A DNA stretch of 38,748 nt from Erysipelotrichaceae bacterium (lineage in GTDB: Bacteria; Bacillota_I; Bacilli_A; Erysipelotrichales; Coprobacillaceae): positions 1 to 38,748 of the forward strand of contig JAETPY010000016.1 of the NCBI GenBank assembly GCA_021770925.1. Direction: 5' to 3'. The notes under the pieces are model-generated. The model was not told where the DNA came from. It saw nothing but the letters and a program-made list of their open reading frames with translations, and made no database searches. The first letter of the stretch is position 1. Each line of letters starts with the position of its first letter. Below are positions 29,196 to 38,614 of this stretch, piece after piece. The position numbers were made by a program, and so were the translations under genes.

Positions 29196-31445
29196 TTATT
29201 TTAAAAGATTGCGTTTTTTAGCTTTCCATAAAACAATAAATATGATAATAAAAATAGTTAAAATGATAATATGAAAGAGGGAAAATTCATTGATTATAAG
29301 ATTACCTGAAAACAAACTGTTTAAGGATATATAATTTATAAATAAAACATCTATAATTCCGATTCCTAAGGGTAAAACGAGGGTAGTACAAAGCAGTAAT
29401 AAAGCGGGATAAGTATTTTTAAGTATTTGTGAAATTATAAAGGTAAGTGCAGCTGTGATATAAGCCATAGATAATCTAAGGATGTAGAGTAAGATGATTT
29501 GGCAAATTAATGGCATAGAAAAACTTATTTTGGCTAATTCAGGAATAGATTGGTTAGATGCAAATAGATTAGATAATCCGTATTGTTTAAAAAGGATGAG
29601 AAATTGTGGCATATAAGCAATAAATATGCATAAAGCAGTAATGATAATGCATATTTTACCTTTTTGTTTAAATACTTCTTTTTTGTCATTTTTTTGTACG
29701 TTGATGAGCTGTATCATGCCTGAGGAATATTCATTTGCAATAAATGGAGTAAATAGAATAATAATAGTTAGAATCAAAAGTAAACTTAACGTAAAATCTG
29801 TTTTATAACCGACATAGCTTTTTCCGAATAATTCTAAGTACCCAGTTTCATAAATGATTGGATAGTCAGGATGTTTTACTGCATAATCTATTCGTTTTAA
29901 AACTTTTTGAAATGCGTGTTCACTTATTAACTGACTGGAAATGTAGTTGGTAATTGCATTTTTTTCGTTTTCTGAGATTTTACCTGATTGGAAATCATTT
30001 TCAGCCTGCAGACTTTGTTGATGTAGTTCTTCAAAACGAAGCGTTTCTTTTTCGATGATTTTTTGTTTTTCTTGATCATAGGGACCTTCTAATATCTTCA
30101 TATAATTTTGATAATAATATTCATCAGTTGAAAGATCATAGTTTAGGTTTATTGTAAACCAAGAAGCAGCTGCACTAAATATTACTAATATTATAAGACC
30201 TTTTTGGATTATAAATAGTTTATAACATTCATGATAAAAGATATTTACATTTATTTTAAAGCTTTTTTTTCTATTTAAGTGAAATGATTTTAAAGTATCA
30301 GCTGTTTTATTTTTAGAAAATAAATAGATATTTAAAAAGATAAAAAGTGATAATAAGATAATTACAGTGAACCAGGCGATATTGATAGTATTGACGGGAT
30401 ATCCAATAATATCAAGATTTAAATAATTTTGATAAATGGGATTAACAAGAATATAGGGAATAATATTGATATGTTTTAAGATGCTGAAAAATGAATTATC
30501 TGGAATTGTTAAATATAGAGTGAAGGATATGCCAAATATAAGAGCAACTAGAAAATATATTTCAACAGTTTTCTTTGACATTAATGTAATGAATAAAAAG
30601 ATCATTGCTAATAATGAATAGATACATATTTTTGATAAAAAGAATATAAGTAAGTATTGCCCAGATGAAATAGCTAATGTAGAAGTTGTAAAACTAGTAA
30701 TCGATTGAATACTTACAGATAAAGGGACAGAACCATATTTTAGATAGCTTATAAAGATATTGCTGCCCCAAAATAAAAATGTAGTTAAAATCGTTGTAAA
30801 GAGAATTACTGAAGTTTTAGTACTGATTAAACCAGTTCGACCTTCTTTGGTAGATTTTAATAAAAAGAAGAGCTTATGTTCTTTTTCGTAGATAAGAAGA
30901 GTGCTGATGATAAAGAAAATAAAGGTTAATGCAAAAAGATCAGTAGGTGCAAAATCAATAATATTTACAAATGCTTTGACATTTGCAAATGTAAGCTTAA
31001 CATCATTTATTGATTGATAATCATTTATTGTTTTATCAGTATTTCTTTTTTGAAAATCACTTTGATTTTTAAATATTGCTGCTTGAAATTCCTGGGCACT
31101 TTGTTTTATTGAAGCAAGAAGTTCTGGATAGGAAGTTAATGTATTCCATTGAGTACGATAGTCATCAAATAATTCCATTTCTCCCATAAAACTATTAGTA
31201 TATTCATATTTATCAATATTGTTAGATATAATAGCTTGATAATATTCATCAATATATTCACCTTTTTTATCATCACTTAAACTATTGATTTTGTCATAGC
31301 TTTTTTGATAAGCATCACTACTATAATATTTATTAGGACTGGTTGCTAATAATAAACCGATATTTAATAAAAGGGCAATAATAAGTACTAGGATACATGT
31401 TTTATTTTTAAAGATTTTATAGAATTCTTGCAAAAATATTGACAT
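29196..31445 (-). CDS. ABC-2 type permease, tandem duplicated (749 aa)
   Basis: A large membrane protein built of two similar halves. Each half starts with FYK-like or FYHECYK, a first membrane helix, a long outer loop of about 130 residues, and then about five to six helices (first helix about 13-32 and about 405-425). This equals two ABC-2 permease units fused in one chain. The gene starts four bases after its ATPase gene and belongs to one operon with it. The operon is read from a LytTR-type promoter (32361-32428). By context it may export, or give immunity to, the secreted cysteine protein encoded on the other side of the regulator. Similar two-gene sets serve in bacteriocin immunity. The substrate is not proven. 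Confidence 0.8.
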   Translation of the reverse strand: MSIFLQEFYKIFKNKTCILVLIIALLLNIGLLLATSPNKYYSSDAYQKSYDKINSLSDDKKGEYIDEYYQAIISNNIDKYEYTNSFMGEMELFDDYRTQWNTLTSYPELLASIKQSAQEFQAAIFKNQSDFQKRNTDKTINDYQSINDVKLTFANVKAFVNIIDFAPTDLFALTFIFFIISTLLIYEKEHKLFFLLKSTKEGRTGLISTKTSVILFTTILTTFLFWGSNIFISYLKYGSVPLSVSIQSITSFTTSTLAISSGQYLLIFFLSKICIYSLLAMIFLFITLMSKKTVEIYFLVALIFGISFTLYLTIPDNSFFSILKHINIIPYILVNPIYQNYLNLDIIGYPVNTINIAWFTVIILLSLFIFLNIYLFSKNKTADTLKSFHLNRKKSFKINVNIFYHECYKLFIIQKGLIILVIFSAAASWFTINLNYDLSTDEYYYQNYMKILEGPYDQEKQKIIEKETLRFEELHQQSLQAENDFQSGKISENEKNAITNYISSQLISEHAFQKVLKRIDYAVKHPDYPIIYETGYLELFGKSYVGYKTDFTLSLLLILTIIILFTPFIANEYSSGMIQLINVQKNDKKEVFKQKGKICIIITALCIFIAYMPQFLILFKQYGLSNLFASNQSIPELAKISFSMPLICQIILLYILRLSMAYITAALTFIISQILKNTYPALLLLCTTLVLPLGIGIIDVLFINYISLNSLFSGNLIINEFSLFHIIILTIFIIIFIVLWKAKKRNLLK

Positions 31446-31449
31446 TATA

Positions 31450-32325
31450 TTAGTCCTTTATTTCATCGCTGAAATAATATAAATAAACATCTTCAAGATT
31501 TGCAACAGCTTCAATATATTGATATTGAAGAGGTTTTTGATTCGCTAAAATCCGTACTAATAAACCATTTGCCTGTTGTGAAATATTGCTGATAAGAAAT
31601 TCACCCTGTACTTTTTTTAATTCCTCTTCCTGAATCGATAACTCAAAGACTTTTCCCTGGATTGCTTTGCAAAACTCTAATGGTGAGCGATGATCTAATA
31701 GATTACCATTTTTCATAAGAATGACTTCTTTAGCGATATGTTCAATATCAGATACTACATGTGTGGCAAATAAAACGATCTTTTCTCTTGCTATTTTAGA
31801 AATAATATTTCTGATTCGAATCCGTTCTTTAGGATCAAGCCCAGCTGTAGGTTCATCTAAAATGATGATTTTGGGCTGATTCATGATTGCCTGGGCAATA
31901 AGGATTCTTTGTTTCATTCCACCTGAATATTGTCCTAAAAGACGATGAGCATCTTTTTGTAAATTTACTATTTTTAAAACATTTTCGATTTCCATTTTAG
32001 CTGTTTTAGCATCCATTCCCTTTAAAGCGGCCATATAATTTAAAAAGCGATAACCATTAAATTGTTCATACAATTCCTGCTGCTGGGGCATATAGCCTAA
32101 TATAGCACGATAATCTTTCTTTAAATCATTAATATTTTTACCATTATATAAGATCTTTCCTTTATTTGGTTTTAAATTGCCAGTTAATAAATTAATAAGG
32201 GTTGACTTACCAGCACCATTAGATCCTAGCAGAGCATATATTCCTGGAGTCAGAGTGAGATTGAAGTCATTTAGAGCTAATAAACTGCCATATGATTTTG
32301 TCAGCTGTTGGATCTCTAATTTCAT
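31450..32325 (-). CDS. ABC transporter ATP-binding protein
   Basis: The 291-residue ATPase has Walker A (GSNGAGKST), Q-loop (YMPQQQ), signature (YSGGMKQRILIAQA), Walker B (IIILDEPTAGLD) and H-loop (FATHV). This is the DrrA/bacteriocin-immunity type of ATPase that works with ABC-2 permeases. A C-terminal extension of about 80 residues follows the ATPase core. The start at 32325 follows TAGGAGG. It is the first gene of a two-gene operon with the permease, and the leader from the LytTR-type promoter is only about 30 bases. Confidence 0.92.
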   Translation of the reverse strand: MKLEIQQLTKSYGSLLALNDFNLTLTPGIYALLGSNGAGKSTLINLLTGNLKPNKGKILYNGKNINDLKKDYRAILGYMPQQQELYEQFNGYRFLNYMAALKGMDAKTAKMEIENVLKIVNLQKDAHRLLGQYSGGMKQRILIAQAIMNQPKIIILDEPTAGLDPKERIRIRNIISKIAREKIVLFATHVVSDIEHIAKEVILMKNGNLLDHRSPLEFCKAIQGKVFELSIQEEELKKVQGEFLISNISQQANGLLVRILANQKPLQYQYIEAVANLEDVYLYYFSDEIKD

Positions 32326-32360: not shown

Positions 32361-32428
32361 ACTATAGCATAAAAAAAGGAAAAATTATTAATTTCCCCTT
32401 TTAGTGGTTAAATATCTAATTAAACGGT
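32361..32428 (-). promoter_or_regulatory. LytTR-type promoter P2 driving the ABC transporter operon
   Basis: Read on the minus strand: half-site A ACCGTTTAAT starts at 32428, half-site B ACCACTAAAA followed by GGGGAAAT starts 20 bases on at 32408, and the extended -10 TGCTATAGT has its TATAGT at 32366-32361, 42 bases after B. There is no recognisable -35. Half-site A fits the known LytTR-site pattern ([TA][AC][CA]GTTN[AG][TG]) at eight of nine positions. The same layout occurs at 33365 and 38547. It begins ten bases after the LytTR regulator gene. Confidence 0.75.
32370..32400 (-). terminator. Possible terminator of the LytTR gene inside promoter P2
   Basis: On the minus strand AAGGGGAAA can pair with TTTTTCCTT (two G-U pairs), followed by a T run. 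It lies between half-site B and the -10 of P2. If real, the regulator transcript ends within the next promoter. Confidence 0.4.
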
Positions 32429-32438
32429 AGTATTGATA

Positions 32439-33104
32439 TTAAAAATTTTCTTCATAAAAAGTTTGAGAAACTAAATTTTTTTTACGACGACTAACATCAA
32501 ATAAACAATTAACACCTTTTAAATAAATACCCTCTTTTGATAATTTAGAAATTTTCTTTTTATTAATAATTACACTACGATTAATTTGAATAAAATTATT
32601 TTCTAAAAGTTTCAATAGTTGTTTTAATGATTTATTTTTTATTATTACTTGTTTATCATCAAATATTATTGCGATATTCATATCTCCTAAGTACATGCAA
32701 TATATTATACTGCTTATTTTTATGTCAAGTATTTCACCATCTATTTTTAAGTTAATAATATACTGCTTTTTAATTCTATCAATCATTTTTGAAACATTCT
32801 CAATTAATTCTTTTTCTAAATTTTCTTTATTAATAAAGCCATAAACATTAGGTCCAAAAGCTTCTTTATAGCGACGATTATGACTAGTCACAAAAATTAT
32901 TTTTTTATCTTCATTAGCTTTTGCATACTCGATTCCATCATGATCAGGCATATCGATATTCAAGATCATAAAATCAAAATCTTGATTAATTTCATTTATT
33001 GAATTATATGTAAATGTTCTGATACAATCAAACTCTAATAACAATATATTTTTTATTTTATCACAAAATATTTGTTCATCATCTATTATGCCCACTGTAA
33101 TCAT
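32439..33104 (-). CDS. LytTR-family response regulator with Asn at the phospho-site
   Basis: The 221-residue protein has a receiver domain (about 1-115) and a LytTR DNA-binding domain (about 120-221; IIKNKSLKQLLKLLENNFIQ, then INRSVIINKKKI). In the receiver, the acidic pocket (IIDDEQ, residues 6-11), the Thr/Ser (FVTSH) and the Lys (FINK) are kept. The phospho-acceptor position in 'LDIxMP' is Asn (residue 49, codon AAT, 32960-32958), giving LNIDMP. Normal Asp phosphorylation is therefore unlikely. No histidine kinase gene is nearby. LytTR regulators bind paired direct repeats; three such pairs lie around this gene. I infer that it controls the ABC operon and the peptide operon. The start follows AAGGGA on the minus strand. 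Confidence 0.9.
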   Translation of the reverse strand: MITVGIIDDEQIFCDKIKNILLLEFDCIRTFTYNSINEINQDFDFMILNIDMPDHDGIEYAKANEDKKIIFVTSHNRRYKEAFGPNVYGFINKENLEKELIENVSKMIDRIKKQYIINLKIDGEILDIKISSIIYCMYLGDMNIAIIFDDKQVIIKNKSLKQLLKLLENNFIQINRSVIINKKKISKLSKEGIYLKGVNCLFDVSRRKKNLVSQTFYEENF

Positions 33105-33364
33105 TTTTCTCTATCCCTTAATCTCTCTTAATATTATTAAAATCCCGTTCTTCTTATATGATAACATTAAATCAAATAATAGTAAAATGAAAGATAATAT
33201 TTTTAAATAAATAACTTTTAATATCAGAAAATCAATGTATTAAATCATGATAATACGACTATTTTTAAAATATTAATACTATATTAATATCAATATTTAT
33301 GCATTTCTATTTAATAATTTGTTTCTTATAGTAGATGTAAATATTATATTTTATATGAGATACT
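33105..33364. other. Divergent intergenic region between the LytTR gene and promoter P1
   Basis: About 260 bases, extremely A+T-rich, with no open frame. It must hold the LytTR gene promoter; a candidate on the minus strand is TTTACT, 17 bp, TATCAT (around 33155-33190). I see no LytTR half-site pair facing the regulator gene, so autoregulation is not evident. Confidence 0.4.
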
Positions 33365-33432
33365 ACCATTTAATGGGAAATTTAACCATTAAATAGGGAA
33401 ATCAATAATAGCTTATTTTATTGTGTTATAGT
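33365..33432 (+). promoter_or_regulatory. LytTR-type promoter P1 driving the secreted-protein operon
   Basis: Half-site A ACCATTTAAT (starts 33365) is followed by GGGAAAT. Half-site B ACCATTAAAT (starts 33385) is followed by AGGGAAAT. The extended -10 TGTTATAGT has TATAGT at 33427-33432. Spacing A-B is 20 and B to -10 is 42, identical to P2 and P3. The -35 region is plain A+T, which fits an activator-dependent promoter. Confidence 0.75.
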
Positions 33433-33918
33433 AAAGATAAGAAAAGAGATAGTAATAAAAATTGATAATATACTAGGAAAAGTTTTCATTATATAAATAA
33501 TTTATATTAGTATTCAATAGTTTTGGTAATTAATAAAACATGCTTCATTAATTAAACAGATGGGGAGGGAGTGAAAATATTTATATCAAGATTAATGGAG
33601 TATGATAATATTATTTTTATTAAATTAATAAAAAAGTATTACACATGATTAATTGTGTAAAGGTAATAAGAATAATTGATGTCAATGGGACGAAAAAGTG
33701 ATGTTTAAAATTAAAAGTAGATCTATATTTAGCTTATATAGTTATGATGAAAAAATTTCTTTTTGTTATGAATCTTTGCCTATAGGTCTATTATTGGACA
33801 ATATTTAACAGCTATATATTATATCTATCATTATAGAAAAGAGAGTTAATAAAAATAAATTAATTATTAGATAGTTTAAATATTCTTTATTAATAACTTA
33901 AAATGGAGGGGAAAACAA
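33433..33918 (+). other. Long leader of the secreted-protein operon with two tiny open frames
   Basis: The region has no ordinary gene but two short frames. One starts GTG 33571 directly after a strong GGGGAGGGA (25 codons, MKIFISRLMEYDNIIFIKLI, ending KKYYT). Its stop lies in the loop of a 7-bp hairpin (33639-33660). The other starts ATG 33701 (35 codons, MFKIKSRSIFSLYSYDEKIS, ending FCYESLPIGLLLDNI). Either could be a leader or signal peptide, or a remnant. Confidence 0.35.
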
Positions 33919-34371
33919 ATGAAACTTAAAAGAAATTGGTTTGTTTTAGTATTGTTGATGCTGATGATTGTTGGTTGTAATTCAAATAAACAAAATAAAC
34001 AAAATGAGACAAATAAAGATAATGAAATAATAGAATTAAATGAAAAGGGGGCACTTGAAAAAATAGTAAATGGATATGTATATTTTTCAATGACAGATTG
34101 CCCGTTATGTTTAGAGGTATATCCTTTAGTCAAGGAAGAAATAAAAAAATATGATGATAAAGTATATTATTTTGATATAAAAAAAATGTTAGATAATAAA
34201 ATTTATACAAGCGAAGAACTCCAAGAAATATGCATTAGATATAATGTTAGGGTAACTCCAACGATTATAAAAACTAAAAATGGAGATGAGGTTTCTAGAT
34301 TTCCATCGAACTATGATCAAGAGATAGAAGAATTATCCAGTGAATTAAAAGACTTTTTAAAGGAAAAGTAG
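33919..34371 (+). CDS. Thioredoxin-like lipoprotein, bacteriocin-accessory type
   Basis: The 150-residue protein has a lipoprotein signal (lipobox MIVGC, Cys20), an Asn/Lys-rich linker, and a thioredoxin-like fold. The CPLC active site is at residues 61-64 (FSMTDCPLCLEVYP), with the cis-proline motif RVTPTII. It would be anchored outside the cell membrane as a thiol-disulfide oxidoreductase. The form recalls the bacteriocin transport accessory (Bta) proteins. It stands upstream of a secreted protein with four cysteines and is read from LytTR-type promoter P1, so making or proofreading disulfides in that product is a sensible guess. The site GGAGGGG before ATG 33919 is strong. Confidence 0.75.
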   Translation: MKLKRNWFVLVLLMLMIVGCNSNKQNKQNETNKDNEIIELNEKGALEKIVNGYVYFSMTDCPLCLEVYPLVKEEIKKYDDKVYYFDIKKMLDNKIYTSEELQEICIRYNVRVTPTIIKTKNGDEVSRFPSNYDQEIEELSSELKDFLKEK

Positions 34372-34373
34372 TA

Positions 34374-34638
34374 ATGAAAGAAGAAAATTATTTAAAATTT
34401 GATAAATTTTTTCAAAAATAGCATTTATCTGTATTATATTAATTCCCTTTTTCTTCCTGGAAAGAAATAGAATAATATTTATTTGTTTTAGTTTACTGTT
34501 TTTTATAGAAAGATTATTTTATATGTGCTATATGGAAGATGATTTTTCAAAGACAAAAAAATATTTTACTTATTAGCGGCTATACTTTATATTGCTTGTT
34601 CAATATATGGGGTTATTGAATTATTTGGCTTAATTTAA
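34374..34638 (+). pseudogene. Broken small membrane protein, possible immunity gene
   Basis: ATG 34374 with AAAGGA upstream opens MKEENYLKFDKFFQK and stops at 34419. One base earlier in frame, the sequence goes on as IAFICIILIPFFFLERNRII, then FICFSLLFFIERLFYMCYME. A second shift at 34555-34561 leads to IFYLLAAILYIACSIYGVIE and a TAA at 34636-34638. Both breaks are single-base losses in A runs (five and seven A). The restored protein would have about 88 residues and three membrane helices, lying between the thioredoxin-like and secreted-protein genes, where an immunity protein is often found. It could also be a homopolymer sequencing error or phase switch. Confidence 0.6.
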
Positions 34639-34714
34639 TTTTATGTTTGGAATGTATTAAAACAACTAAGCTTATTACTGCATAGATTTAAAATGCGGAG
34701 AAAAGGAGGATAAT

Positions 34715-35248
34715 ATGAGAAGTTATTTAAAGCTATATCAATCTTTTGTGATTTTATTAGTTGCTGTTGCTATGGTTATTGGAATGTTTGGGTTTAGTAT
34801 ACCAGTAGAAGCAAAAGAGTTTAGACATCAATATGAAACTGAAATGATTGATCCAGTCTATGATGAAAATGGTGAACTAATTGAATTTACTCTTGTCTTA
34901 AAAGATGCTAATCCTGCTTTATTGGAACAATTATATAAAGAAGTTGAAGAAAGAGATATTAATTTAATGACCGCACAGATGAATGAAAATGGAATTGTAC
35001 CTTTAGCTTCATCAGGAAGAGGTACTTATAAATTTTCGGTAGGTGTATGTGATGTTATTGAAGTTTTAACAGGGTATAGTTGTGCAAGCATAGCTAGATA
35101 TATTGGGTTAGAGTTAGTTAATGGATGGTATATGTATAATGGCAAAAAATATACTGGAACATGGCAGGTTACTCGTGGATATATTCCAGGATGTGAGCCA
35201 AGACATTCAGAAGGATGCTTTAGAACAACTTATACAAAAATAGCATAA
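34715..35248 (+). CDS. Secreted four-cysteine protein, bacteriocin-like candidate
   Basis: A 177-residue protein with a Sec signal peptide (membrane core about 11-28, likely cleavage after PVEA, residue 33). A mostly acidic middle follows (about 34-95), then a compact C-terminal part (about 98-177) that is basic to neutral, rich in Gly, Tyr and Trp, and carries all four cysteines (112, 123, 160, 168). The layout of leader, acidic propeptide and Cys-bearing C-terminus resembles bacteriocins cut from the end of a larger precursor, but I recognise no family. Context is the strongest clue: a LytTR-type promoter, a thioredoxin-like lipoprotein, a broken membrane protein and an ABC-2 operon with the same promoter type. 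The site AAAGGAGG before ATG 34715 is strong. A hairpin follows the gene. Confidence 0.7.
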   Translation: MRSYLKLYQSFVILLVAVAMVIGMFGFSIPVEAKEFRHQYETEMIDPVYDENGELIEFTLVLKDANPALLEQLYKEVEERDINLMTAQMNENGIVPLASSGRGTYKFSVGVCDVIEVLTGYSCASIARYIGLELVNGWYMYNGKKYTGTWQVTRGYIPGCEPRHSEGCFRTTYTKIA

Positions 35249-35313
35249 TTAAAAATGAAATATACATTCCTAAATATATTAAAAATTAAATTTTGTCAGA
35301 AATGCAATATACG

Positions 35314-35345
35314 AGGGCTGTTATAAAAATAAACAGCCCTTTAAT
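35314..35345 (+). terminator. Terminator of the secreted-protein operon
   Basis: A perfect 9-bp stem (AGGGCTGTT at 35314-35322, AACAGCCCT at 35332-35340) with a nine-base A-rich loop. The T tract is short, so it may be imperfect. Confidence 0.6.
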
Positions 35346-35698
35346 GATTTGATATATATGGTATAAAACTAGATGGTGAAAGATTGTTCTGGTAGTTTTG
35401 CACTACTAACTGTTAGCCAAAAATAAAGGTATCCTATAAACTGAAGTTTAACAGTATGGTAAAATATAAGATGTAAAAATAGTGGGCACGTTGATGAAAG
35501 TGATATGTCTTATCGTAAAAAGTTTTAGGAATGTGATATTTGTAGTAGCCTAAATTATAGAAGAAAGTATAATGATAAAGAATATTGTTATTTTTAAGTT
35601 TTATATGGGGAAGCATAATAAATTTCAATTTATCTTACCGTTTAATTAGATTAATGATTGTTTAATGTGAAATTTAAAAATTTTCTTGAATATCCATA
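35346..35698. other. Decayed stretch with a possible zinc-finger fragment
   Basis: No intact gene. Around 35465-35590 the plus strand reads CKNSGHVDESDMSYRKKF, a stop, then ECDICSSLNYRRKYND. This looks a little like a TnpB-type zinc ribbon with one Cys lost. I see nothing else. Confidence 0.3.
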
Positions 35699-36392
35699 TC
35701 AACAGGTTGATACATTCAAAATATATACTATCTGTTTATGACTGGTAGGAAAGGATCTCTGTATGTATTCTTTCACCTTGTCCATCATATGTTTGCCTGT
35801 ATATCTATGGTTAAAACGGTATTCTTGCTCATTCATAAATAACGGCATTTCTCGTTTTGTTACACCATGATATATACCTGTTTTATTGTTTTTGATATTG
35901 CCGATGATGGTATTCAACCATTTCAATCTATAATCGGGTTCATTATAGTTGATTTTTTCATTTTTGACCTGAATCTGTTTTTTGAGAATATTGAATTCTT
36001 TTTCACCATAGCTTCATAAAATGAACTTTCAAGCAGTTTTTGTGAATTACTTAATGACATAAGTATTTTGCTTTTTGTTTCTAATAATAAGGCAAATTTA
36101 TAGGTAGCATCTAGATGAAACATTAAAGTTATCGCACTTATTCCCTTGTTTTTATTGAAAAAGGAATATACCTAAAAGAAGCTTATAAAGATTCGAGCCT
36201 GCAGCTTTGAAAAATAGTATCAGATAGAGAATACAGCTTATGACATTATTTACATTCCAAGACATAAGATACTTTAGTTTTACTAACACGTTTAATGAGC
36301 CAGTATTTATGGCATTGGCACCTATTGCAAGAAAAATCGCTAGGCCATTTCATATAAAGACATTTTTTAGATTTAAGAATTTTATAAGACAT
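35699..36392 (-). pseudogene. IS1595-family (ISXO2-like) transposase pseudogene
   Basis: On the minus strand from ATG 36392 (GGAGGG upstream) the N-terminal zinc ribbon reads MKWPSDFSCNRCQCHKYWLI, then a KTKVSYVLECK segment, a stop and CHKLYSLSDTIFQS. This fits the ISXO2/IS1595 'KWPxGFxCxxC' start. After several frame breaks, the C-terminal end (35735-35926) reads KWLNTIIGNIKNN, then IYHGVTKREMPLFMNEQEYR and FNHRYTGKHMM, the typical IS1595 end. The catalytic core between is scrambled. It is an inactive insertion remnant; terminal repeats are not identified. Confidence 0.75.
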
Positions 36393-36675
36393 ACGAACAC
36401 CCTCCATCTAATGTAACAATATTAATTGTACATTAAAAGGAAAATTCATGATTTCTACGTTTTGTATGTTGCCCTAAAAAGCAGTGTTAAAATCAAAAAA
36501 TATATAACCTGTGGATTATGGGAATTCAAGAAAACTTTTATTTTTTCATGTCCTTTAGAAATTAAAAGATGGTTAGATGTTATATACAAATATTTAGGGA
36601 AACATTCATTCTAAAGAGGATGAAGAGAGATAGCTATTAATATAAAATTATTATAATGAAAGGGAGGATGAAATA
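36393..36675. other. Non-coding stretch before the solute-binding protein gene
   Basis: I see no gene. A 62-codon open frame (36426-36614) lacks a ribosome binding site and family likeness. A TATAAT at 36652-36657 is too close to the AAAGGGAGG site (36659-36667) to act as promoter for the next gene. No LytTR-type half-site pair is present here. Confidence 0.4.
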
Positions 36676-38196
36676 ATGAGGAAACGATTACTATTTATTT
36701 TAATTTTATTATTGTGCCTGCAAATAACAGCTTGTACACAAAATAATAATACAAAAACAGATAATATAGATAAGAAAACTGTCGTATGGAGGATTGAAGA
36801 TCCTGGTAGTATGGCTTCTTTAGGTGATGGATTAATTGAAACATGGGAGGAACCTCTTAATGAATTATTAAAGAAAAAGGGAGCTTCTTATCAAGTTAAG
36901 ATCGTGACTTTTAATACTCAAGAAACAGATAATAAAATAAATGAGTTAAAAGAACTAAAAAAAGATGGTAATCAAACTGATCTTGTATCAATGATCTTTG
37001 CGTCTTATAACGATACGGAAGTGGAACCTTGGAATAATACATATAAATGTGCAGTTGATAATAAACTGCTTATGAATTTAGATGAATGGAAAGAAAAAAA
37101 TAAAGAAATATTAGAAAAAGTATTAGTACCCTATGATTTTGAACTATCAAAAATCGATAATAAGTTATATGGCATTTCAAGTCATGTTCCTACTATTAAT
37201 GGTTTTATGTATAATAAAAAGATGTTAGATGAATACGGAATTAATATAGAAGATATTAAGGGGAATATATTTGATAATAATGAATTGTTGATTCAGGCAA
37301 AGAAAAATAATGGGAATATTCCAATTCAATTTATAGGATTTGATACTAGTATGACAGGCTTGTGGGTTGTACCACCAACAAATAATTTGGCATGGAAAAA
37401 AGGTGAAGGTTTTATTTCTTTGAGTCAATCAAAGGAGTATAAAAATTTATTGGCTAACTATTCATTACTAAAACAGCAGGGTTTGCTTGATCAGGGTCTT
37501 TTTAAAAACGGTGTTGTTCCTTTTGTTACAGCGGCTATAATGAGTAAGCAAGATACATTTGAAGTCAATATGGCTTCTCGCTCTATGCCAGAGACAAAAG
37601 ATGATTTTGTTGTTGTCCCTAATCAATCTACACCAAATATGGAATTGTATTGGGGAGATAACAAAACATCAATTGCATCTTGGTCAGAAAATGTTGAAAA
37701 TGCAGAAGATTTTCTTTTGAAATTATTTACAGATAAGGATATTGCAAATCTTATTCAATATGGTATTAAGGATCAGGATTACACCCTTGATAAAGACGAT
37801 CATATTACTGTAACTACTAAAAATAGTGGATTAGCTATATTTGGATATCAGTTTACAAACCCTAAAATCACTTATTCTTCAGATCTTGAAGAAGATGATA
37901 AAGTCAGTTACTCTAACTGGTTTTATTCAACATATGGTGATAATTTTCCTAAAGGCTTCAGATTTGATCCAATTCCAGTTTTAAATGAAATTAATGCTAC
38001 TAATAAAATAATGACAGGAGATTTCATTAATGAATTTCAAGAAAGTGAATGGATGAATAAAATAGCTAAATTAGAAATAAAAGATCTAGATACATTCTTA
38101 AAAGATATGAATAAGGAATTAGATAAAGCTGGGATGCAAAAGATAGTTGATGAAGCCAATCGTCAATATCAGGAGTGGTTAAAAGGGGTTGAATAA
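36676..38196 (+). CDS. Extracellular solute-binding lipoprotein
   Basis: The 506-residue protein has a lipoprotein signal with Cys20 (LQITAC) and the fold pattern of family 1-type solute-binding proteins of ABC importers: VVWRIEDPG, a GISSHVPTINGFMYNKKMLD hinge-like segment, and a C-terminal region near residues 390-450 resembling DUF3502. It would bind a sugar or small peptide outside the membrane. No permease or ATPase for it is in view, so it either uses distant subunits or acts as a sensor. It stands in the accessory region next to a broken second copy of the thioredoxin-like lipoprotein gene. Start and site (AAAGGGAGG) are clear. Confidence 0.8.
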   Translation: MRKRLLFILILLLCLQITACTQNNNTKTDNIDKKTVVWRIEDPGSMASLGDGLIETWEEPLNELLKKKGASYQVKIVTFNTQETDNKINELKELKKDGNQTDLVSMIFASYNDTEVEPWNNTYKCAVDNKLLMNLDEWKEKNKEILEKVLVPYDFELSKIDNKLYGISSHVPTINGFMYNKKMLDEYGINIEDIKGNIFDNNELLIQAKKNNGNIPIQFIGFDTSMTGLWVVPPTNNLAWKKGEGFISLSQSKEYKNLLANYSLLKQQGLLDQGLFKNGVVPFVTAAIMSKQDTFEVNMASRSMPETKDDFVVVPNQSTPNMELYWGDNKTSIASWSENVENAEDFLLKLFTDKDIANLIQYGIKDQDYTLDKDDHITVTTKNSGLAIFGYQFTNPKITYSSDLEEDDKVSYSNWFYSTYGDNFPKGFRFDPIPVLNEINATNKIMTGDFINEFQESEWMNKIAKLEIKDLDTFLKDMNKELDKAGMQKIVDEANRQYQEWLKGVE

Positions 38197-38197
38197 G

Positions 38198-38381
38198 ATG
38201 CAGCATAAATTAAAAAAATCATCATTTTTATGGTCTTGAGCATTGTTTTTATAGGTGGCTGTAGTACAAATATATATATGAACAGTTTGGAACATTAGAA
38301 TTTTCAATGAAAGATGGCTTTTATCATACAAAGAATAGTGGTTATTTATATTTTTTTGATTATGAAAGTTGTATGCAGTAA
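38198..38381 (+). pseudogene. Truncated second thioredoxin-like lipoprotein
   Basis: ATG 38198 begins MQHKLKK; a one-base loss in an A run then breaks the frame, and the next frame gives IIIFMVLSIVFIGGCSTNIY, a lipobox. A second break in an AT repeat leads to EQFGTLEFSMKDGFYHTKNS and GYLYFFDYESCMQ before a TAA at 38379-38381. The segment GYLYFFDYESC matches GYVYFSMTDC of the intact lipoprotein at 33919 just where its CPLC site starts. It is thus a decayed paralogue cut at the active site. Confidence 0.6.
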
Positions 38382-38467
38382 AGCTAATTGTAAAATGGAA
38401 GCAGAATTAAAATAAAATTTTTAATTGTTTCTCATTTAGTATCAAATATTATGATAAATATCTAATC

Positions 38468-38520
38468 AGTTTTTATTTCAAGCATTTCACCAGTTATTTT
38501 TAAATCAATATAAATCATAT
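38468..38520 (-). pseudogene. Fragment of a second LytTR regulator gene
   Basis: On the minus strand this reads MIYIDLKITGEMLEIKTD then stop. It parallels YIINLKIDGEILDIKISS at about residues 114-131 of the intact regulator, and DNA identity is visible across about 50 bases (compare 32711-32765). Only this linker between receiver and DNA-binding domain survives. Confidence 0.55.
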
Positions 38521-38546
38521 TAATAAGATAATTTTTAAAAGTTACG

Positions 38547-38614
38547 ACCGTTCGATTGGATATCAAACCATTAAATGGGGAAATGAACAATATCATTATT
38601 TATTATGTTATAGT
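38547..38614 (+). promoter_or_regulatory. LytTR-type promoter P3 pointing out of the window
   Basis: Half-site A ACCGTTCGAT (starts 38547), half-site B ACCATTAAAT then GGGGAAAT (starts 38567), and extended -10 TGTTATAGT with TATAGT at 38609-38614. Spacings are 20 and 42, the same as P1 and P2. The initial transcribed bases (AAAGGTAAGAAAAG) also match those after P1. A good AAGGAGGG follows near the window end, so the gene it drives lies mostly outside. Confidence 0.7.

Follow-up and report, generated by a model that had tools for sequence, protein, structure and literature searches.

The window analysed here, the 38,748-nt contig JAETPY010000016.1 (contig C1 of a 2.88-Mb Erysipelotrichaceae draft genome), carries three blocks of 68 bp each, A, B and C, in the neighbourhood of a gene for an orphan LytTR response regulator, and it is quite probable that these blocks are activator-dependent promoters of the ComE/BlpR kind at which this regulator switches on bacteriocin-like operons. 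From the sequence we infer that the regulator, probably as a dimer, would bind the two direct-repeat half-sites of each block, stand in for the absent −35 element and recruit the housekeeping RNA polymerase to the extended −10 TGNTATAGT. The operons turned on would encode bacteriocin-like, Sec-exported, disulfide-containing proteins with a thioredoxin for their maturation, small membrane proteins, and an ATP-binding cassette (ABC) transporter for self-protection or export. Having neither a kinase partner nor the phospho-acceptor aspartate, the regulator would work independently of phosphorylation and be controlled by its dose, and a hairpin lying between half-site 2 and the −10 of block A would end its transcript.

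The coordinates and strands assigned to the blocks in a preliminary description of this DNA proved correct, as did the length of exactly 68 bp (Table 1). Numbered from the first base of a block, half-site 1 occupies positions 1–10, half-site 2 21–30, GGGAAAT 32–38, TGN 60–62 and TATAGT 63–68, and both half-sites in all three blocks are ACC.TT.AA-like. Two distances in that description needed to be redefined: its 20 bp is right as the start-to-start period of the half-sites but not as the gap between them, which is 10 bp (11 bp for 9-bp repeats), and its 42 bp is right from the start of half-site 2 (21) to TATAGT (63) but not from the end of GGGAAAT (38) to TGN (60), which is 21 bp. The absence of a −35 element was borne out in every block, the hexamers 16–18 bp 5′ of TATAGT matching TTGACA at 1–3 of six positions. 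Searching with AACCATTAAATNGGGAAAT at up to three mismatches returned three matches in the window versus 0.14 expected by chance. Moreover, a leave-out matrix composed of the half-sites and the extended −10, for which only sites of paralogous regulators (C83, G001, G004, G005 and G008) served as training sites, ranked the blocks first to third in the window (scores of 35.1, 30.7 and 26.7), with the next-best place scoring 8.2 and the maximum over 100 random Markov-1 windows reaching 16.3.

The geometry was then compared with that of known LytTR-dependent promoters. The paired repeats read ACCGTTTAA-11-ACCACTAAA and variants of it, that is, two direct repeats of ~9 bp with a spacer inside the 11–13 bp class, and, assuming a transcription start 7 bp past TATAGT, the half-sites lie at about −74 to −65 and −54 to −45. 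The ComE boxes of Streptococcus pneumoniae were sought at −77 to −63 and −56 to −42 (PMC6560143), BlpR promoters combine 9-bp repeats with an extended −10 (PMC4739728), and the Streptococcus mutans HdrR promoter, ACCTCTTAG-12-ACCACTTAA ... TGCTATAGT, for which spacers of 11–13 bp are known (PMC6193735), is very close to the window blocks in both sequence and spacing. The Streptococcus ComE/BlpR regulons thus resemble the window system in having a pair of ~9-bp direct repeats near −75 and −50 with an extended −10, and several bacteriocin-type promoters around one LytTR regulator; they differ in that the window system has no adjacent kinase or known pheromone, an Asn in place of the phospho-acceptor Asp, a repeat period of 20 bp (11-bp spacer), a hairpin in the spacer of block A, and products that are not recognised class II peptides. 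Judged by sequence, the blocks would be LytTR-dependent promoters of the familiar ComE/BlpR/HdrR type, and this architecture is not new.

To map the distribution of the sites, genomes were scanned with a sequence-only covariance model built from 22 sites. In the window's genome the model matched the three blocks, C128:563, C83:9666, C83:12430, C7:20062 and some weak places, amounting to about seven sites at four places and not to a scatter before unrelated genes. Strong sites (E<1e-10) were confined to five of the nine genomes of Thomasclavelia, the genus of the window (G000, G001, G004, G005 and G008), a set that coincides with the genomes whose regulators share at least 53% identity with that of the window. 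The other four genomes of the genus, with regulators 42–48% identical, gave no site below E=0.001, and 34 genomes from 19 other genera of the family gave no full-length match and only three partial ones. A loose pattern applied near the regulators of G002, G003, G006 and G007 found no comparable repeat pair with an extended −10, and the same pattern also missed block A. Orthologous loci were present in T. saccharogumia DSM 17460, T. cocleata DSM 1551 and strain VE202-01. The proposal of a small regulon around one regulator is therefore supported by the few sites per genome and their confinement to genomes with this regulator clade, with the amendment that further sites lie on C128, C83 and C7 and that C83 encodes its own paralogous regulator.

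The regulator, of 221 aa, was recognised as a LytTR protein by Pfam (39.8 bits, cutoff 22.6, E=5e-10), in line with the preliminary description, and its receiver matched Response_reg (37.3 bits, cutoff 30.2); a phmmer search of the PDB gave no match. The phospho-acceptor position 49, an Asp within the LLDIxMPD motif of the paralogues, is Asn in the window regulator, which retains Asp8, Asp9 and Lys93. Asn49 also occurs in its orthologues in G001, G004 and G005, and the next relative in G005 has Ser; Asp49 is kept in the C83-type paralogues, in G008 and in the more distant relatives of G002, G003, G006 and G007. In the tree the Asn/Ser regulators group together, with a separate Asn case in G001 (contig C41). 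No HATPase_c_5 kinase gene was found on the window contig, and in G002 and G003 such a kinase lies directly downstream of the distant regulators (44–48% identical). Since relatives bearing the Asp include ones with and ones without an adjacent kinase, separation from the kinase probably came before the loss of the Asp. S. mutans ComE with D60N or D60A, when constitutively expressed, activates PnlmA without ComD (PMC12323615), so that an Asn protein can be an activator. Because the kinase partner and the phospho-acceptor Asp both seem to have been lost, the window regulator probably needs no phosphorylation, its activity being set by how much of it is made. The model matched no site oriented to read into the regulator gene from upstream, and there is thus no sign of autoregulation.

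Two other kinds of regulator invite comparison. The LytTR Regulatory Systems of S. mutans (HdrRM and BrsRM) likewise place bacteriocin-type genes under kinase-free LytTR control; the window system is not one of them, because its regulator keeps the receiver and there is no adjacent membrane inhibitor gene, the gene downstream encoding an ABC ATPase. The pseudo-receiver regulators HP1043 and ChxR share an altered phosphorylation site and the lack of a cognate kinase, but they are of OmpR/PhoB type and not LytTR type, and the window protein differs further in its kept Asp8, Asp9 and Lys93; according to a recent review, the activation mechanisms of pseudo-receivers are mostly unknown (PMC12632262).

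The same data allow a conventional two-component loop, in which a kinase encoded elsewhere acts on the Asp49 paralogue of C83, this paralogue drives the sites, and the window regulator is a copy that is in decay or serves to modulate. The regulators of C83 and of the window share 61% identity, a similar site lies immediately behind the C83 gene, and four HATPase_c_5 kinases are encoded in the genome; yet none of them is on C83, the C83-type and window-type sites differ in half-site 2 and beyond, and the Asn49 regulator has been kept as an open reading frame beside intact sites in three species (G000, G004 and G001), which speaks against simple decay. We consider this loop unlikely.

Block A begins 10 bp 3′ of the regulator stop codon, and transcription of the regulator gene probably ends at the block's hairpin, which is followed by T's. 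Where sites lie immediately behind a regulator gene, they have an inverted repeat between half-site 2 and the −10, followed by T's, with folding energies of −6.9 to −14.3 kcal/mol; most other sites fold more weakly (−0.1 to −6.9 kcal/mol), a differently placed one (L098) reaching −7.4 kcal/mol. In T. cocleata, the ABC operon and its own intact block have been relocated away from the regulator, and in the relic that remains behind the regulator the half-sites and −10 are gone but a good hairpin persists, both arms of which are built of different bases. This relic indicates two separable functions, the half-sites and −10 serving the downstream operon and the hairpin the regulator transcript.

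A second alternative would explain the likeness of the blocks by descent, as copies of a duplicated or mobile segment, and not by regulation. Blocks B and C are ~78% alike over ~107 bp, a regulator relic lies upstream of C, and transposase remnants occur in the region. Against this, pairwise identity is 75–78% within the blocks and 33–49% in the 100-bp flanks (random 68-mers averaging 30%), sites belonging to regulators 53–61% identical have the same fixed columns, and in T. cocleata the copy that has no target operon is missing precisely the half-sites and the −10, so that copying as the sole cause is very improbable. Equally little credence is given to a repressor operator through which the LytTR protein would silence the operons. 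Constitutive binding by an unphosphorylated orphan is conceivable, but the half-sites are on the upstream side of the promoter core, as expected for an activator, the −35 element is lacking, and the same geometry is seen in LytTR promoters known to depend on an activator.

Table 1. Coordinates of the blocks, the regulator gene and neighbouring features in the window
Feature	Position	Strand	Remarks
749-aa hydrophobic protein, probable ABC-2-type permease	29196..31445	minus	Block A operon; adjoins ATPase
ABC transporter ATPase	31450..32325	minus	Block A operon
Block A	32361..32428	minus	ABC operon promoter; half-site 1 32419-32428, half-site 2 32399-32408
Block A, extended −10 TGCTATAGT	32361-32369	minus
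Block A, hairpin AAAAGGGGAAATTAATAATTTTTCCTTTT then TTT	32374..32402	minus	Within block A; folding energy −9.3 kcal/mol
Block A, GGGAAAT	32391-32397	minus
LytTR response regulator	32439..33104	minus	Receiver and LytTR domains; orphan; Asn at residue 49
Block B	33365..33432	plus	Thioredoxin/secreted-protein operon promoter; divergent from regulator gene
Block B, half-sites	33365-33374, 33385-33394	plus
Block B, GGGAAAT	33396-33402	plus
Block B, TGTTATAGT	33424-33432	plus
Thioredoxin-like lipoprotein	33919..34371	plus	Block B operon; CPLC motif
Small membrane protein remnant (MEM88)	34409..34635	plus	Block B operon; split over two frames
177-aa secreted protein	34715..35248	plus	Bacteriocin-like candidate; signal peptide, propeptide-like region, four Cys, GYIPGCEPRH
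Weak, decayed-looking block match	35637..35686	plus	16.7-16.8 bits
Lipoprotein related to solute-binding proteins, DUF3502	36676..38196	plus
Regulator-gene relic, 41 bp	38470..38510	minus	85%; upstream of block C
Block C	38547..38614	plus	Promoter pointing to contig edge; near-identical to contig C128 block

The genes behind the blocks bear on what the regulon makes. The label of a peptide-export regulon needs amending, as the products are mostly small or Cys-containing secreted proteins, a thioredoxin lipoprotein and transporters, and the cargo is best called bacteriocin-like from its sequence features. As candidates for the parts of a bacteriocin locus, which would comprise a small secreted toxin-like product with genes for maturation and immunity, the window offers the secreted protein with its signal peptide and four Cys, itself without a library match, the thioredoxin lipoprotein and the small membrane protein. 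The thioredoxin lipoprotein showed weak similarity to the PedC/BrcD bacteriocin disulfide isomerase (TIGR01295), its 26.1 bits not reaching the curated cutoff of 120. For the 177-aa secreted protein a plasmid search gave no match, and an AlphaFold model from a two-sequence alignment had a mean predicted local distance difference test score of 57. The hydrophobic protein of the block A operon had no Pfam match and retains its position beside the ATPase in G001, G004 and G005; an origin as tandem halves was considered and dropped, the halves showing no significant similarity to each other. Likewise, a pheromone encoded in the ~480-nt leader of block B, where a 25-codon open reading frame (33571-33648) follows a strong ribosome-binding sequence, was not supported: T. 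saccharogumia has a similar start of this frame, but an indel alters its C-terminus. Broken genes also occur in the island, namely the split small membrane protein (34409-34635) and a mere fragment of a 386-aa lipoprotein (38274-38369), and remnants of IS1595-type transposases are found between the operons (35699-36123).

Comparison with other contigs and genomes extended the picture beyond the contig edge. The relic and block C are arranged divergently, in the same way as the regulator and block B. The C128 block precedes an intact 176-aa secreted protein with GYIPGCEPRH and a small membrane protein. The window lacks the region past block C; the syntenic stretch of T. saccharogumia and VE202-01, ~97% identical, runs on into a broken copy of the C128-type protein, another 68-bp block, a broken thioredoxin gene, the small membrane protein and a DUF3502 lipoprotein. 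In these two strains the third operon predicted beyond the edge is a degenerate version of the same kind of cassette. Elsewhere in the genus, paralogous sites lie in front of different small secreted proteins, which are followed by a TIGR01654-like 730-aa protein (L044), a lactococcin-972-type ABC protein (L043) or small membrane proteins, the matches to TIGR01654 (bact_immun_7tm) and L_ocin_972_ABC (TIGR03608-like) lying below the curated cutoffs. These paralogous sites resemble lactococcin 972 loci in placing a small secreted protein before such a membrane or ABC protein; the window operon differs in that both are absent, and no library model matches its secreted protein.

Several protein families recurred at these loci. 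A Thomasclavelia secreted family with an invariant GYIPGCEPR(H/Y) and further Cys comprises L006:849-1376, L101, L059, L060 and the window protein (34715-35248), and the conserved C-terminal part of its members is often preceded by 'TRA' or a comparable motif, possibly a propeptide cleavage site; a profile search with the family returned one insignificant match (E=0.41). The site-linked secreted protein L044:3015-3665 resembles C92 papain-like amidases (E=1.6e-5, just under the cutoff), which raises the possibility of enzymes among the regulon products. Solute-binding-like DUF3502 lipoproteins, which may have an immunity or sensing role, recur at L039:6455-7951, L039:9047-10573, L046:3533-5053 and in the window (36676-38196), and in several loci a 386-aa lipoprotein comes next; one T. 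cocleata paralogue lies directly behind a 68-bp block.

Several observations weigh against activation of bacteriocin-like operons by the window regulator. The draft genome is 89% complete, so that a kinase could be missing from it or encoded elsewhere, and the second member of the clade, on C83, could also act on these sites. The secreted products match no known bacteriocin family in library model searches or PHROGs, and the matches to accessory-protein families all stay below curated cutoffs. Blocks B and C are partly related by descent or duplication, and a scan for consensus terminators did not report the block A hairpin. Activation of these operons by the neighbouring regulator nevertheless remains the reading that we prefer. 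We propose more tentatively, as a possible history, that a ComE/BlpR-like activator lineage in Thomasclavelia parted from its kinase before it lost the phospho-acceptor, leaving a dose-controlled, phosphorylation-independent LytTR activator of a bacteriocin-like regulon that has its own terminator in the spacer of a promoter under its control.

What is new here comes down to two features, an orphan regulator lacking the Asp, together with its targets, and the probable placing of a terminator within a promoter; a paper search on Thomasclavelia and bacteriocins found passing mentions only. Collectively, the analysis provides a well-defined 68-bp site model with a regulator and target set for a gut-commensal genus. 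The genus also offers a natural series for studying LytTR activation without phosphorylation, running from regulators with the Asp and an adjacent kinase, through those with the Asp and no adjacent kinase, to those with Asn or Ser and no kinase, and the secreted Cys-containing proteins with the GYIPGCEPRH motif may be considered candidate antibacterials.

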